Virus record (IMG/VR): IMGVR_UViG_3300050821_002337
Span: 1-25,172 of that record
Direction: 5' to 3' (one strand)
Origin: a virus
DNA: 25,172 nucleotides
Below the pieces are notes generated by a model. It made no database searches and was not told where the DNA came from. It worked only from the letters and a program-made list of their open reading frames with translations. Every line of letters starts with the position of its first letter. Positions within the stretch are counted from its first letter, which is position 1. Below are positions 10,058 through 24,590 of this stretch, piece after piece. Both the position numbers and the translations under genes were made by a program.

Positions 10058-10900
10058 ATGAACATCCAACACATCAAAAAAGCAATTCTCACCCTCGCTG
10101 CGGTCTTGGCTTTCTGTGGAATTTCGCAAGCTCAGACCGCGCTTACCATGACCACTCTCGCCTCGTCGGTGAACGGACCAGCACTATATGCTGGAACCTC
10201 ACCGACAATCGACAACTGCATGACGCTTGCCTCCGTAACAGGCATCAGTGCACCTACGCTGCCTGGAACTCCGGTAAGCGTCTTCTATGTTGGCCGTGAA
10301 GCCTTCGGGGTACTCACCGTCAACACCACAAGCAAAATAACTTGCGGATTGCGCGGATACCTGGGCACCCAGGCCAGTCCGCATCCGAATGGAGACATGG
10401 TACTTGTCGCGCCGGTTTACAACACGGCCAACGGCGGGAACCCCATGCCAAACGGGTTCTTTAACCAAGACCCTCCGCTTGGCGGTGCTTGTACTGCGGC
10501 CAATACACCCGCAACTCCGTGGGTCAATGTGCTGACAGGGGCGCAGTGGCTGTGCTCCTCACTCACAGGCACATGGGTACCGGGGTTTCAGAATCCTTGG
10601 GCGATTGATTCCTCCGCGCAAACTGCTTCGGTGGTTTCTGGGGCTGGCGCCAATTTGCCTACCGGTCCGCTATTTGTCGTGAGCGGTTCAGCGGCAATCG
10701 TGAACTGGACGCAACCGGTCGGCTGCAATGCTACGGCCGTCGGCGGTTGTTCCTTCACGGTGATTTCGGCCGCGGGATCCACATGGACGTGGACAGCGGC
10801 TGGAAACATTATGACAGCGGGAACCGGCACGGCGGGACATACCTTCACGTTTACATGGTCGTCCAGCTTGTCGAAGTGGGTTCCTTCGTCACTCACCTAA
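10058..10900 (+). CDS. Signal-peptide-bearing protein encoded beside the coat gene
   Basis: ATG 10058 follows an AAGGAGAAAAAC site that overlaps the coat stop. The first residues are a textbook Sec signal: basic MNIQHIKK, hydrophobic AILTLAAVLAFCGI, and cleavage after SQA (residue 25), leaving Gln. The 255-residue mature part is Gly/Thr/Ser-rich beta with about six cysteines. A TCGLRGYLGTQASPHPNGD segment looks like a repeat-type fibre or decoration motif, and the C-terminus is HTFTFTWSSSLSKWVPSSLT. Position suggests a head decoration or fibre protein, but export of a virion protein is unexpected. It could also be a secreted moron. Function unknown; the signal peptide is clear. Confidence 0.75.
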   Translation: MNIQHIKKAILTLAAVLAFCGISQAQTALTMTTLASSVNGPALYAGTSPTIDNCMTLASVTGISAPTLPGTPVSVFYVGREAFGVLTVNTTSKITCGLRGYLGTQASPHPNGDMVLVAPVYNTANGGNPMPNGFFNQDPPLGGACTAANTPATPWVNVLTGAQWLCSSLTGTWVPGFQNPWAIDSSAQTASVVSGAGANLPTGPLFVVSGSAAIVNWTQPVGCNATAVGGCSFTVISAAGSTWTWTAAGNIMTAGTGTAGHTFTFTWSSSLSKWVPSSLT

Positions 10901-19701: not shown

Positions 19702-21048
19702 ATGGCAAGAACATCCATACCGCATCAAGCAGAGTTACATGCAAAGCCCGAAAGCGAATTAACACGTAACCGTAACACCAAAAGATTGAAAATGAGAACC
19801 ATACGCGCTTTAGCATTTGCCGCAATCATAGCACTTTTCCTGCTGCCTTGCGTCTCTCATGCTCAGATTGTCCAACCCTTCATGGGCATCGCCGATCCGC
19901 AATTCCTTTCAAACACCGGCGCGCCCCTTTCGAGTGGTTCAGTTTATTTTTATGCGGCTGGGACAACCACGAGCGCGCAGACATACACGGACGCGTCAGG
20001 TACGGTCCTCAACGCGAATCCGATTCCGCTGAACTCTGCAGGACGACCGACAAGCGGCGGAATTTGGCTGTTGAATATTTCGTACAAGATAGTTGGTTGC
20101 GCAAGCGCTACGGATGGTCCTGTTTGCGCTGGAGGTAACACGCTTTTTACTGTGGATAACATACCCGGCTTCAATGGTGGTGGCGGTGGCGGCTCCGCGA
20201 CGAGTCCATTCATCACGGCAAGTTCAAATCCAGCGACAACGGGCATCCTGCGTCTCGCGTCCGGCGATTCAGGGCCATGCTGGCGCAACGCTGCAAACAG
20301 TGGAAATATTTGCTTGCACAAAAATGTCAACGATTTGCTGACTTGGGATGGCGGATCGGTAGTATTTCCAGAAGTCGGAGCGCCAACTGCCTCGGCTGGA
20401 TTTGACCTTCTCTGGGCCGACAACTCCAGTCACAGATGGAAGATGTCGAACAATGGCGGCGCTGCGGATAACGTAGTCGGCGCGAATACCACGGACATAC
20501 TGCAATTCAAAACGTTTGATACGAACGGAGGAAACACCCTCAAGATCAACGGAACACAGGTCACCGCGATGGCACCGGCCAGCGCGACCGTTGTGGGTAG
20601 CGGGGCAACGATCACAATTAATGGGATAACCTGCACGATCAATAGTTCGTGCAACGTCGTTGCAGAGACGGTTTTCGGCTGGGGCGGGTCAGGCAATGCA
20701 TTCAATGCTGGGTCGGCCAATCAGAATGTATGTCTACAGACTGGAGTCAGCGGTTGCGTGAGGATGAACTTTGCGAATCCCCACACCATCACCAGACTCG
20801 CATACAACTTGATGATTAGCCCGTCTGGTTGCGCTAACAATGCGGTTGTCGGGGTCTATGACGTTACCTCTTCTACGCTTTTAACTTCTTTGACAATTAC
20901 AAATGGTCAAGCCCTTGGCTGGGTCGATAGCGGCGCACTGAGTGTTGCGACAACGGCAGGACACGCGCTTGGCGTAGGCGTCACCAATGGGGCGGCCGCC
21001 TGCACGACATATCCAACCATCGGCATGGTAAACGCAATACTGCAATAA
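19702..21048 (+). CDS. Tail fibre-like protein with Sec signal peptide
   Basis: From ATG 19702 (GAGGATC site) it has 448 residues; the alternative ATG 19792 gives 418 and begins exactly at a signal peptide: MRTIRALAFAAIIALFLLPC, cleavage after SHA, mature Gln. The following domain matches fibre N-terminal modules: SSGSVYFYAAGTTTSAQTY, NPIPLNSAGRPTSGGIWLL, LFTVDNIPGF, then a Gly-run linker. The C-terminal domain (HTITRLAYNLMI...VGVYDVTSSTLL) looks like a receptor-binding beta-sandwich. The mature part has about ten cysteines. Position between ejection proteins and tailspike fits a tail fibre. The signal peptide is unexpected for a virion part. Which start is used is open: 19702 has the better binding site, 19792 the better signal. 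Confidence 0.75.
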   Translation: MARTSIPHQAELHAKPESELTRNRNTKRLKMRTIRALAFAAIIALFLLPCVSHAQIVQPFMGIADPQFLSNTGAPLSSGSVYFYAAGTTTSAQTYTDASGTVLNANPIPLNSAGRPTSGGIWLLNISYKIVGCASATDGPVCAGGNTLFTVDNIPGFNGGGGGGSATSPFITASSNPATTGILRLASGDSGPCWRNAANSGNICLHKNVNDLLTWDGGSVVFPEVGAPTASAGFDLLWADNSSHRWKMSNNGGAADNVVGANTTDILQFKTFDTNGGNTLKINGTQVTAMAPASATVVGSGATITINGITCTINSSCNVVAETVFGWGGSGNAFNAGSANQNVCLQTGVSGCVRMNFANPHTITRLAYNLMISPSGCANNAVVGVYDVTSSTLLTSLTITNGQALGWVDSGALSVATTAGHALGVGVTNGAAACTTYPTIGMVNAILQ

Positions 21049-21051
21049 AAA

Positions 21052-21408
21052 CTAGATGTGTTCTCGCGCCCAGCTTTCAGCCATCACTTCACTCGAAGAT
21101 CCAGTGCGGATATGCCCACATTCATGAGCCAGAACGTGCCGCAGAATTTCGGGAGAAGCAGAAAGTACGTAGGATTCACGAAGCACGATCTTGTGTGCCG
21201 CGAGGTTCGTAAAGGCTGCGTCGGATTCTGCGTGCCAGCCGCGCTTCAGTTCTTTCCATGCTTGCTCATCGGCAATGATCACGTAGTAGCCAGTCGGAAC
21301 AAGTCCTCGATCAGCCGCCTGGAACTTGGCGCGGGCAGGAGAAATGCCCTGAGCATGTGCGGTCAGACCCATGAACAGCAGCAGAAGAATCAGTGTGGTG
21401 GCTTTCAT
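21052..21408 (-). CDS. Secreted HExxH metallopeptidase-like protein
   Basis: This minus-strand gene sits between fibre and tailspike, convergent with the fibre gene (stops three bases apart). The product from ATG 21408 is 118 residues; a GTG at 21414 would add two. A Sec signal (KATTLILLLLFMGLTAHA, mature Gln) precedes a compact domain. HVLAHECGHIRTGSSSEVMAE (from residue 91) holds the zinc site HECGH (95-99), with E107 or E111 as possible third ligand, in the style of HExxHxxG...E..A...WA peptidases. It would act outside the cytoplasm. It could be a lysis or superinfection accessory, or a host-type moron. Activity is inferred from the motif only. Confidence 0.75.
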   Translation of the reverse strand: MKATTLILLLLFMGLTAHAQGISPARAKFQAADRGLVPTGYYVIIADEQAWKELKRGWHAESDAAFTNLAAHKIVLRESYVLSASPEILRHVLAHECGHIRTGSSSEVMAESWAREHI

Positions 21409-21444
21409 ACTCACAGGATAACAAAGCGGTTATATTGACGTAAT

Positions 21445-21458
21445 AGTACAAAGGTACT
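21445..21458. promoter_or_regulatory. Short inverted repeat between divergent starts
   Basis: AGTAC (21445-21449) and GTACT (21454-21458) flank AAAG in the interval between the minus-strand metallopeptidase start and the tailspike start at 21474. A TTGACG lies just before it on the + strand (21435-21440). It may be an operator or promoter zone for one of the divergent genes, but the -10 elements are not clear and a 5-bp arm is weak evidence. Confidence 0.25.
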
Positions 21459-21473
21459 GGAAATGGAAACTAA

Positions 21474-23807
21474 ATGACAAGTAAACAAATGAAGACAGCG
21501 TTACGGATGGCCCTCTGCGTGTTGTGCCTGTTAGGTGCTACAGCCGGGCGCGGGCAGGTCGGGAACCCGCAAACCTTCGCCACAGCCAACCTAACTGCCT
21601 CGGCGGCAAGCTGCTCGGTCGCCAATAACACTGCGGTACTGCGAGTGCACTTGCCAAACAACGCGGATGGAGCCTCGTTCACTACTTCGGGCACGTATTC
21701 AGGAACCGTGCAATTTCAGGCTTCTGCCGATAATCAGACGACTTGGCCGACAAATGAAGGCAGCGCGACTTCGCCGGGCATCACTTCGATAGCCGTAAAC
21801 GGGCTCACGGATCTGTGCATTTACGTCTCGGCTTATACGAGCGGAACCATCGTGGCGACGATCAATGTCACTCTGAACACTGGATTGCAGGGGCCAGCAG
21901 GGCCAGCAGGTGCGGGCGGCGCAGCAGCTAATAGCCCACTTCCAGCCGCCACGTCAGGGCCGGGGCCGGTTTTCAACGTCAAAAATTATGGGGCGGTGGG
22001 GAACTCGCAATCGAGCCTAAACGCCACTGCAACGGGCGGAACTGGATTCACTTGCACCGACTGCGCATTCACGCAGGCCGATGTTGGAAAACGTATTTCT
22101 TGCGCCGCCAATTTTACGACGGTAGTTGCACCGGCTACAACAATTGCCAGCGTCACGAACGCAACTACGATTGTCCTTTCCGTATCTGCCGTTGGAGCCG
22201 GAACCTGCGTTGCTGTTTGGGGTACGCCGGACGATGCGGCGGTCGCTGCCGCTTTAGCGGCTGCAATTGCACAGATGACTAACGTTTTCAATTCGGGAAA
22301 TTTAGGGATTACAAGCTCTGCGCCGACACTTTACTTTCCTGCCGGAAACTACAATCTATCATCCACCGCGATTAACGTGGCTCCGTCTTCCTCAAGAAGT
22401 GGATTTGCCATCCGTGGGGATGGTATAGACCAAAGCAAAATTTATTTTAATACCGGGGAGACTGCCGCTCAACTCATTCAATTCAACGGCAACGCGCGCG
22501 AGATCTTGATGGAAGATATCACCCTGGATGGCGCGCAAGGCAATCAAACTACGGCAAACCTCGTATTGATCATGGGGGGTGGTCCGGCTTGGATTAGAAA
22601 TGTCACGATTCAGAGATTCGGCGTAAGCCAGGCCCTTTATTTGGCTGGGCAGGATTACGGAAACAAGATAACTGTTGTCGCAAATAGCGGTACGGGCATC
22701 GTCTGTCAGGGCTGCACCGGAGAGTTGTATGAGACTGTTTCCTCGAATAATAACGGATCGGGAGGAAATCTACTAATCTCCGGCGTGAATGGCGGTGGAA
22801 CGGGAGAGGGATTTAGCTGGCTTAAGGGGCTTGTTGATGAATGTGTCGGTGGGCCTTGTACGCAGGTTGTGAATTCGCGGGACGTTTGGCTTGGCGGTGG
22901 ATTTTTTTCCGGCAGCGGTGGTGCGGCTATTTCCGTGGATGCAAATTCATATGTCCATCTAGTAAGTGGCATCGCTGGCGTGTTTGCTCAGGACTCAAAC
23001 CTCAACGGACTTACAGTAGCTACTGGTGGCGTTGTACAGGCATCCGACTTCCGATTTTTTGGTACTGGCACAGGGAAGTGCATTACCAATAATGGAATCT
23101 TTAACGATAACGGCGGAAACTCATGCGAGAACATGTTCCAGATCGCTAGCGGAACATCCACTGGCACGACAGCAGTCCTAACACTGACTAACAATACGGC
23201 CGCCGTAAATGCGAATTGCTCCGTTGGCGATGCCTTGCTCGTTTCAGGAACAACCGCAGGATACAACGGCTATTATCCAGCTGGGGCTACAAGCGGAATT
23301 ACGGCGGTCACAGCAACCACGCTGACATACACAACGATTGCATCAAACATAGGTGCGATTGGGGCGGGTGGCTTCGCCTTCTGTCGCAACATGCAGACAT
23401 ATACGGGAACGCTTCCGAAGGCGCTTCTAAACAACCCGATTCCCAATACCTGCTACGTCACGATCACGCCTATCGTGAACGCCACAACGTATAACATATG
23501 CAATTTCGCAGCCCAGAATCCAACGAACATTACCCGCATTACGGCAAGCTCTCAGGTCACAACTGCCTGCACAGTGGCCCCGATCATCACCATTTCAAAC
23601 GGCACTGTGTCTGAAACGCTGACACTCACCACGGCTAAAAGTTCCTGGGATAGTTCCGTAGATACGAGTACAGGTGTAGGCACGACCATTTTCAAGCCCA
23701 ACACGACAATCACGGTCAAGTATGACGCGGGAGCGGCTTCTGCTTGCACTACGCCGCCAACGAACTTCGCAGTCAGCTACAACATTTCTCCGATTTTGAG
23801 CAACTAA
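21474..23807 (+). CDS. Tailspike with pectate-lyase-type beta-helix and signal peptide
   Basis: This 777-residue protein starts with a Sec-like signal (MKTALRMALCVLCLLGATAG, near residues 6-25; mature Gln about 28). An Ig-like domain follows (residues 32-137), then a short collagen-like linker GPAGPAGAGG (140-149). The sequence FNVKNYGAVGN (167-177) and DDAAVAAALAAAIA with LYFPAGNYNL (253-297) is the classic entry to a Pectate_lyase_3 beta-helix used by tailspikes to bind or cut polysaccharide. The middle is Gly/Asn-rich parallel-helix sequence. The C-terminal third (from about residue 550) is Thr/Ala-rich beta. About 18 cysteines are present. It takes the P22 gp9 place, but a signal peptide replaces the head-binding domain. 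Confidence 0.8.
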   Translation: MTSKQMKTALRMALCVLCLLGATAGRGQVGNPQTFATANLTASAASCSVANNTAVLRVHLPNNADGASFTTSGTYSGTVQFQASADNQTTWPTNEGSATSPGITSIAVNGLTDLCIYVSAYTSGTIVATINVTLNTGLQGPAGPAGAGGAAANSPLPAATSGPGPVFNVKNYGAVGNSQSSLNATATGGTGFTCTDCAFTQADVGKRISCAANFTTVVAPATTIASVTNATTIVLSVSAVGAGTCVAVWGTPDDAAVAAALAAAIAQMTNVFNSGNLGITSSAPTLYFPAGNYNLSSTAINVAPSSSRSGFAIRGDGIDQSKIYFNTGETAAQLIQFNGNAREILMEDITLDGAQGNQTTANLVLIMGGGPAWIRNVTIQRFGVSQALYLAGQDYGNKITVVANSGTGIVCQGCTGELYETVSSNNNGSGGNLLISGVNGGGTGEGFSWLKGLVDECVGGPCTQVVNSRDVWLGGGFFSGSGGAAISVDANSYVHLVSGIAGVFAQDSNLNGLTVATGGVVQASDFRFFGTGTGKCITNNGIFNDNGGNSCENMFQIASGTSTGTTAVLTLTNNTAAVNANCSVGDALLVSGTTAGYNGYYPAGATSGITAVTATTLTYTTIASNIGAIGAGGFAFCRNMQTYTGTLPKALLNNPIPNTCYVTITPIVNATTYNICNFAAQNPTNITRITASSQVTTACTVAPIITISNGTVSETLTLTTAKSSWDSSVDTSTGVGTTIFKPNTTITVKYDAGAASACTTPPTNFAVSYNISPILSN

Positions 23808-23809
23808 CT

Positions 23810-24091
23810 ATGAATCCTCTAATCCAATCTCTATCTCAATGGGTCGTCGCTCATCCGACCGCTGTGTCGATGACCGCATATTACGTCTTCTCGGTGTTCA
23901 TCAGCTCGCTCGAAATGCCGACGAACCAAAGCGGTGCGTTCTACCGTTTCTGCTTCAAATTCTTTAATGGTCTAGCGGCAAACCTGCCACGTGCACAGGC
24001 TTCCACGACAAACCTTGGGTACCAAAATCCGAAAGCACCGACGATTCCAGGGCCTGAAATACCATCACCGAAGGACACTAAAGGAAGTTGA
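23810..24091 (+). CDS. Small membrane-associated phage protein (holin-like candidate)
   Basis: ATG 23810 comes two bases after the tailspike stop; the longer frame from 23744 would lie inside that gene. The 93-residue product has one hydrophobic segment (VSMTAYYVFSVFISSL, about residues 19-34), then a conserved-looking FYRFCFKFFNGLAANLPRAQ stretch and a Pro/Ser-rich tail. This pattern recurs in short late-region phage proteins I cannot name. A holin or holin-associated role is possible from size and position. The last 14 bases overlap, tail to tail, the minus-strand endonuclease gene. Confidence 0.6.
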   Translation: MNPLIQSLSQWVVAHPTAVSMTAYYVFSVFISSLEMPTNQSGAFYRFCFKFFNGLAANLPRAQASTTNLGYQNPKAPTIPGPEIPSPKDTKGS

Positions 24092-24590
24092 GGACTGCAA
24101 ACTCGCCATGATGAATTTTAGCAGCTTCGTCGTAGGCACGTGCAGCTTCTTCCTTAGTATTAAAGAGACCGAGCCAGTAATGTTTTCCCCTGCACTGAAG
24201 TTGGGCAACCCATTGTTTCCTACTTGTATTCCAGCTCACACCTTTAAATCCACTTTTGTTCCTGGTACTTTTCCGGAGGTTGGCCTGATTTTGGGAGCCG
24301 GAACATTTGCGCAAGTTCTGTTTTCGATTGTCCAGGCCCTCATGGTTGCGGTGATCTACGTGAAGAACTCCCATAATGAACGTGTGCATTCTGAGACTTT
24401 TTCCATCCACCTGTCGGAAGGCATAGAAGGTTCTGGCCTCTTTACTCCACTCGGCCGTCCAGTTGAATTGCGAGAGGCGTTCAAAATCTTCCACATCGAC
24501 AATGGCATTTTGTCCTTGTGTCAGTGGGATCAGGCGGTAAGAATTATCAAGCGGCTGAACAACCTCGTGTCTTTTCACGGGGAGTTTCAT
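24078..24590 (-). CDS. HNH homing-type endonuclease with AP2 DNA-binding domain
   Basis: This 170-residue minus-strand protein has an HNH core at about residues 66-105 (MHTFIMG, HVDHRNHEGLDNRKQNLR) and an AP2 domain at 114-168 (GFKGVSWNTSRKQWVAQLQC, then YWLGLFNTKEEAARAYDEAA and the HHGEFAVLNF ending). HNH-AP2 proteins are free-standing homing-type nucleases that spread between phage genomes. The AP2 part binds the target and the HNH part cuts it. A GAGGTGG site precedes ATG 24590. It faces the opposite way from its neighbours, as expected for a recent insertion between two late genes. All domain landmarks appear intact. Confidence 0.92.
   Translation of the reverse strand: MKLPVKRHEVVQPLDNSYRLIPLTQGQNAIVDVEDFERLSQFNWTAEWSKEARTFYAFRQVDGKSLRMHTFIMGVLHVDHRNHEGLDNRKQNLRKCSGSQNQANLRKSTRNKSGFKGVSWNTSRKQWVAQLQCRGKHYWLGLFNTKEEAARAYDEAAKIHHGEFAVLNFL

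Follow-up and report, generated by a model that had tools for sequence, protein, structure and literature searches.

According to the textbook account, tailed phages are assembled wholly in the cytoplasm, and their adhesins are therefore expected to do without structural disulfides. We wondered how two cysteine-rich adhesins that both begin with predicted Sec signal peptides, a tail fibre and a spike, could become part of such a phage. Their genes lie in a 25,172-base IMG/VR virus record with a P22-type structural module, analysed at its full length and referred to as the window. Its gene order is large terminase, P22 portal (PF16510, E 3.7e-136), scaffold, P22-type coat, head-tail adaptor, head closure, ejection proteins, fibre and spike. 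A near-identical contig from a different sample (L007) matches the window at 99.8% across 11.5 kb, and relatives of the phage point to Acidobacteriota as its host. The relevant features are listed below, a slash marking the predicted signal cleavage.

10058-10900, plus strand: third signal-bearing gene, adjoining the coat gene; MNIQHIKKAILTLAAVLAFCGISQA/QTALTM, 6 cysteines in the predicted mature part
19702-21048, plus strand: tail fibre/tailspike gene; its product has a signal peptide, a head-binding domain and, in the mature part, 10 cysteines
19702-19863, plus strand: n-region and predicted Sec signal of the fibre; the basic n-region has 30 amino acids, predicted cut SHA/Q
19864-20166, plus strand: fibre head-binding domain of the P22-portal-phage type, beginning at the predicted mature Gln
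21052-21414, minus strand: small M48/SprT-like metalloprotease-like ORF with predicted signal, between fibre and spike
21474-23807, plus strand: spike, with signal, unique N-terminal domain, Gly linker, conserved beta-helix/C-terminal part and 18 mature cysteines
21474-21554, plus strand: predicted Sec signal of the spike, cut near GRG/Q
21930-23807, plus strand: conserved part of the spike, 49-57% identical to relatives L002, L003 and L006, whose N-terminal parts differ
22218-23081, plus strand: right-handed beta-helix of the spike (residues 249-536), from AlphaFold2 model and structure comparison

Signals were detected with a home-made heuristic that scores n-, h- and c-regions and recognises 10 known E. 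coli signals. A Sec/SPI signal was defined by basic n-region, uncharged hydrophobic core and small residues at -3 and -1 inside the first 60 residues, with a score of at least 6 as cut-off. N-termini of both fibre (...TKRLKMRTIRALAFAAIIALFLLPCVSHA/QIVQPF) and spike (MTSKQMKTALRMALCVLCLLGATAGRG/QVGNPQ) display all these features, and the Sec signals that the sequence-only reading had proposed for both proteins are confirmed as strong predictions of this scorer. Exactly 4 of 133 mechanically derived ORFs of the window reach the cut-off, and all four are plausible genes: the fibre, the spike, 10058-10900 and the minus-strand ORF at 21052-21414. The background rate is 3 of 335 ORFs in 15 control loci, which rules out a chance hydrophobic segment. 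A wrong start codon was ruled out as well: signals and domains share one reading frame, the pattern recurs, and in several cases the signal starts behind a Shine-Dalgarno-like site. In the window, AGGA stands at short spacing before the fibre start at 19702 and a strong Shine-Dalgarno AAGGAG precedes 10058-10900; an inner ATG at 19792, within the fibre signal region, has a weak ribosome site before it. Among signal-bearing proteins of this and other phages (see below), Gln occupies position +1 after the predicted cut in 21 of 24. The metalloprotease-like ORF has a weak Pfam match that misses the cut-off (E 1.4e-3). The product of 10058-10900 has a signal-bearing relative in contig G1095 (L165, E 9e-14), likewise encoded next to the coat gene, and one in contig G1097 (L163, E 2e-9) that is without signal and contains one cysteine.

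The signal had been thought to stand where P22-like spikes carry a head-binding domain. For the fibre this was wrong: both an alignment and a profile match to PDB 7eeq place a P22-type domain directly behind the cut site. Fibre residues 55-155 align with the tailspike N-terminal domain of eight deposited podophages; a search with the window portal protein recovered most of these phages too. In all eight, the annotated start lies at the domain (M-AVQIAPL..., M-ATLLPEG...), and the predicted mature fibre, QIVQPFMG..., coincides with it. The domain profile matches 7eeq 'Tailspike head-binding domain' with E 5.7e-23 as well as tail spike chains 9vyg and 9vyh, and the window fibre sequence alone reaches E 1.4e-3 against the 7eeq-type domain. 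The domain is part of solved virion structures (7eeq, 9vyg). It is the predicted mature form, not the full ORF, that starts directly at the domain. Because the signal precedes a complete virion-attachment domain, predicted cleavage would restore the usual N-terminus; about 110 related tailspikes without signal begin at the very site where the fibre is predicted to be cleaved. Homologs whose start lies behind the hydrophobic segment had been named in advance as evidence against export. Most homologs literally do start there, but they belong to other phages wholly devoid of the signal, so that the signal appears as an addition and not as a wrong start, and the comparison does not count as a refutation. 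The position of the gene agrees with its domain. Two ejection-type genes precede it, an order shared with related P22-portal phages, and the P22-type portal and coat together with the preceding ejection genes provide the genome context of a P22-type tailspike. By domain and position the fibre would be a P22-type tailspike, and by its start a putative exported protein. With the whole fibre as query, no match was found among viral contigs.

The spike has no detectable 7eeq-type head-binding domain and no match in deposited phages. Its AlphaFold2 model is good only in the core of the helix, where pLDDT is about 75 (N-terminal domain below 50). This helix resembles tailspikes CBA120 TSP2, Sf6, HK620 and phi29 gp12 with VIA-align Z of 20-23. 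Spikes of L002 (57% identity) and L003 (55%) are similar to the window spike from residue 153 onward only. The stretches before that residue vary in both length and sequence among the three; even so, every one of these spikes begins with a signal of its own, and in L002 the gene preceding the spike is signal-bearing too. Judged by these sequences, the predicted signal is retained in the three spikes while the N-terminal domain is swapped.

Further, we examined how widely signals are associated with the head-binding domain. In IMG/VR loci, 3 of 85 ORFs with the domain score as signal-bearing and a fourth (L035) was recognised by eye; the start codon lies at most 8 amino acids from the domain in 83 of the 85. 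Among deposited phages (INPHARED) signals are present in 0 of 9 ORFs, and in a GTDB genome scan in one of 18 copies, that of the acidobacterium Candidatus Sulfopaludibacter. Of four copies from 396 sampled Acidobacteriota genomes, three have signals (two of the three being close kin); signals were present in 0/14 ORFs from a sample of 398 Pseudomonadota genomes and in 0/1 from Verrucomicrobiota. Two cysteines inside the head-binding domain are found in 3 of 7 signal-bearing rows of the alignment versus none of the other 103. A single origin of signal-bearing head-binding domains is allowed by tree test (p-AU 0.92). These domains may form one clade, in which case counts of signal-bearing rows are not independent tests; repeated independent gain of signals on this domain is unsupported.

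The trait extends to further genes and domains. One of the three signal-bearing Acidobacteriota copies belongs to a chromosomal prophage (G255) that has three consecutive signal-bearing adhesin genes and a lysozyme-like gene behind them. Several signal-bearing virion-region genes occur in each of contigs G1095, G1096, G1097 and L266, the first three of which encode a P22 portal. G1097 has five large signal-bearing adhesins, and the part of it that was read contains no adhesin-like gene without signal. For an unrelated N-terminal domain (AQQTINIG...), two copies are immediately preceded by a signal and 81 have none.

Signal-bearing adhesins were also found in a cultured podophage, Tunturi_1, whose isolation host is Tunturiibacter psychrotolerans X5P2 (PMC11924767). 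Five of the Tunturi_1 genes gp12-gp17 carry predicted signals, among them those annotated as tail spike and as 'virion structural protein', and the products have 20, 10, 20, 1 and 32 mature cysteines. Signals are absent from its portal, coat and ejection-type genes, and no further spike-like candidate was present among the 33 genes read. Tunturi_3 grows on the same host strain and has adhesins without signal and with 0-7 cysteines; Tunturi_4, a siphovirus on another Tunturiibacter species, has tail genes without signal. A host-imposed trait is unsupported by these two phages. Since Tunturi_3 is signal-less on the same host, the trait belongs to phage lineages and the export route is unnecessary for that host. 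A search of viral contigs with Tunturi gp12 matched nothing, and the paper describing these phages does not mention mass spectrometry (PMC11924767).

Cysteine content of the adhesins was then compared with their surroundings. Cysteines make up 2.5% of the fibre and 2.4% of the spike versus 0.74% across 15 non-signal genes of the window, which bears out the cysteine-richness noticed from the sequence. Counts estimated by eye as even, about 10 and 18, proved exact for mature fibre and spike; the mature product of 10058-10900 has 6. An even cysteine number after signal removal has been taken as a sign of disulfides in exported bacterial proteins (PMC7678975). In signal-bearing phage proteins the number is even in 23 of 25 when mature and in 13 of 25 with the signal left on; among 12 proteins with an odd number inside the signal, 11 become even once mature. 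L266, added once this test was complete, encodes three consecutive signal-bearing adhesins whose mature parts contain 6, 12 and 10 cysteines, bringing the total to 26 of 28. In a subset of 22 proteins without close relatives, 20 are even (p = 1.2e-4), where p-values for parity assume independent proteins, an assumption that is only partly true. As controls, signal-less tailspikes with the same domain are even in 27 of 58 cases and non-signal genes of the same phages in 13 of 35. A phage-wide cysteine bias is ruled out, as 55 non-signal genes from four of these phages contain 0.58% Cys.

Cysteines also come and go two at a time: exactly two lie in an insertion of 96 residues in Tunturi_2 gp17, and the L003 spike is without pairs 411/414 and 660/676, both members of each missing together. 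The tailspike of P22 itself has unpaired cysteines; cysteine content alone therefore says little, and parity with pairwise changes is the stronger evidence. Taken together, parity and pairwise changes support predicted signal removal and disulfide bonding. L006 is evidence against an export route. Part of its spike is 49% identical to that of the window and keeps 14 of the 18 window cysteine positions without having a signal, and both of its adhesins are cysteine-rich with even counts (22 and 20). In such a phage paired cysteines either need no export or oxidise after lysis. The L006 module is perhaps oxidised after lysis, or was perhaps acquired recently from a signal-bearing relative.

Signals, their exact placement, their recurrence and the paired cysteines can be read from the sequences; from these features we infer cleavage, Sec export, disulfides and virion membership of the adhesins. 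We consider it fairly probable that the adhesins are exported by Sec, freed of their signals and oxidised in the periplasm, and that they dock onto particles when the cell lyses or later. Receptor-binding protein genes in a P22-portal podophage lineage and in other Acidobacteriota phages would have gained cleavable Sec signals. Late in infection the adhesins would be exported, the signal would be cut off directly ahead of the virion-binding domain, and mature chains would fold and form disulfides in the periplasm, while heads and tail machines would assemble in the cytoplasm. Opening of the inner membrane at lysis would bring the spike pool and the particle pool together, and head-binding domains would then attach to the tail, a docking step that we propose. 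Export might yield stable disulfide-bonded spikes. DsbA-like proteins are encoded by all four genomes of Acidobacteriota prophage hosts and VKOR by two of the four. In P22, tailspikes add in vitro to particles that lack them, as the final assembly step, which makes it feasible for docking to occur late and from outside the cytoplasm. Exported spikes diluted at lysis must still meet particles, which we count against docking. Of the three readings put forward earlier (export with late joining, an anchor inside the tail, a cell-surface protein), the first is now best supported, by signal placement, paired cysteines and recurrence that includes a cultured phage; the joining step itself is a proposal. 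Chances appear even for the broader idea of two-compartment assembly in tailed phages of Acidobacteriota, in which heads and tail machines would be cytoplasmic and Sec-secreted, disulfide-bonded spikes, perhaps with a head-decoration-like protein too, would be docked only at lysis.

Signals by themselves would put the proteins outside the cytoplasm, and exported tailspike-like proteins (Pantoea WceF) and chimeric fibres (Bdellovibrio MAT) exist in bacteria. The adhesins could accordingly be exported and disulfide-bonded but serve apart from the virion, on the infected cell or beyond it, for example in receptor masking, host polysaccharide degradation or exclusion of other phages. We regard this as unlikely: the genes occupy the tailspike position, an intact head-binding domain lies exactly at the mature N-terminus, and the genes read in contig G1097 and in Tunturi_1 offer only signal-bearing spike-like candidates, so that the virion would lack an adhesin. 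A hydrophobic start that stays uncleaved, buried in the tail or used as membrane anchor, would let the spike assemble in the cytoplasm, as tailed phages generally do, and the L006 spike does without a signal. The clear n-h-c structure with A/Q-type cut sites in unrelated proteins, a cysteine parity that is even only with the predicted signal removed, and homologous domains that manage without such a segment make this explanation quite improbable.

The signal might also be used by some of the chains only, those from an inner start or escaping export being assembled in the cytoplasm and signal-bearing ones acting otherwise outside. The fibre does have a Met near residue 61, shortly after the domain begins, and a Met a few residues in is frequent in head-binding domains. 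In signal-less homologs, however, the start lies several residues ahead of this Met; initiation at the inner Met would truncate the domain, and cysteine pairing would be pointless for cytoplasmic chains; we see little chance for such a division. Finally, L006 with its signal-less copy of the cysteine-rich module might suggest that paired cysteines are a property of the beta-helix module, air-oxidised after lysis, and that signals are accidental fusions with host genes. Nevertheless, a single phage retains signals on several genes, and unrelated domains carry them too; signal-less tailspikes show no even bias; and a strong signal that served no purpose would be expected to do damage on a virion protein. 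These points render this account very improbable.

How do export and late docking compare with known systems? Tailspikes of Xanthomonas phage PBR31, Rhodoferax phage P26218 and Phage DSL-LC05 share the portal family and the 7eeq-type head-binding domain with the window fibre, and in PBR31 and P26218 the tailspike gene follows two large (ejection-type) genes, as in the window. The three tailspikes, however, have neither signal peptide nor cysteine pair in the domain. The beta-helix fold is common to the second spike of the window and known tailspikes. Virion proteins with Sec signals are represented by pVIII and pIII of Ff phages, display fusions of which fold in the periplasm (PMC4823517); these proteins, however, are anchored in the membrane and leave by extrusion through the envelope, with no lysis step, in a virion that has no tail or head. 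Tailed phages also send some late proteins through the Sec system of the host, such as fOg44 Lys44 and SAR endolysins (PMC6116005), but these are lysis enzymes rather than virion adhesins. Bdellovibrio MAT (PMC10769870) and Pantoea WceF (PMC7949094) are exported fibre- or tailspike-like proteins with signal peptides, but they are bacterial and located outside phage genomes. In the available parts of these two sources, no head-binding domain is reported, the MAT family is described with a conserved beta-rich domain of ~130 amino acids after the signal peptide (PMC10769870), and WceF is assigned to the Tat route (PMC7949094). In the open-access papers searched we found no earlier report of signal peptides on tailspikes or tailed-phage adhesins. 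Two-compartment assembly, if shown, would be new, whereas its sequence features, signals on virion proteins or on tailed-phage proteins, have known precedents.

One group of short-tailed viruses of soil Acidobacteriota seems to export its cell-binding spikes by the normal secretion route of the host, which would allow disulfides, as far as the sequences tell. This is directly testable, as Tunturi_1 with the trait and Tunturi_3 without it have one host strain in common. If true, phage assembly would involve a second compartment and lysis would be an assembly step, a route unknown for any tailed phage, and spikes of soil phages could be disulfide-armoured.

Predicted signals and other features in the window and in other loci are as follows.

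10058-10900, gene adjoining the coat gene, with predicted signal and even cysteine count
19702-19791, basic n-region (30 residues) ahead of the fibre's signal
21052-21414, (-), small M48/SprT-like metalloprotease-like ORF with HECGH motif and predicted signal peptide
24078-24590, (-), AP2-domain/HNH homing-endonuclease-like ORF, close to the window's end
L174:10371-23028, single cluster of five genes with predicted signals in Tunturi_1, a cultured Acidobacteriota phage
L005:7116-9722 (= L178) and also L202, predicted signal peptide preceding an AQQTINIG-type N-terminal domain
L006:7545-10025 (58-kb contig), spike without signal, C-terminal part as in the window spike

An n-region comparable to the fibre's (31 residues long) occurs in locus L035, where a GTG start with AAGGAG lies ahead of it. 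The metalloprotease-like ORF, antisense between fibre and spike genes, is possibly an exported moron. The product of the coat-adjoining gene is perhaps a head-decoration protein that joins late; the relative that contig G1097 encodes at L163:7652-8308 lacks a signal and contains just one cysteine.

Tunturi_1 carries five signal-bearing genes, whereas Tunturi_3, sharing its host, has none. The AQQTINIG-type domain, preceded by a signal in both contigs, is unrelated; L005 has a lipobox-like LASC, and both contigs perhaps have Verrucomicrobiota hosts.

The L006 spike lacks a signal yet keeps most cysteines of the window spike, and is a handy case for asking if cysteine pairing depends on export.
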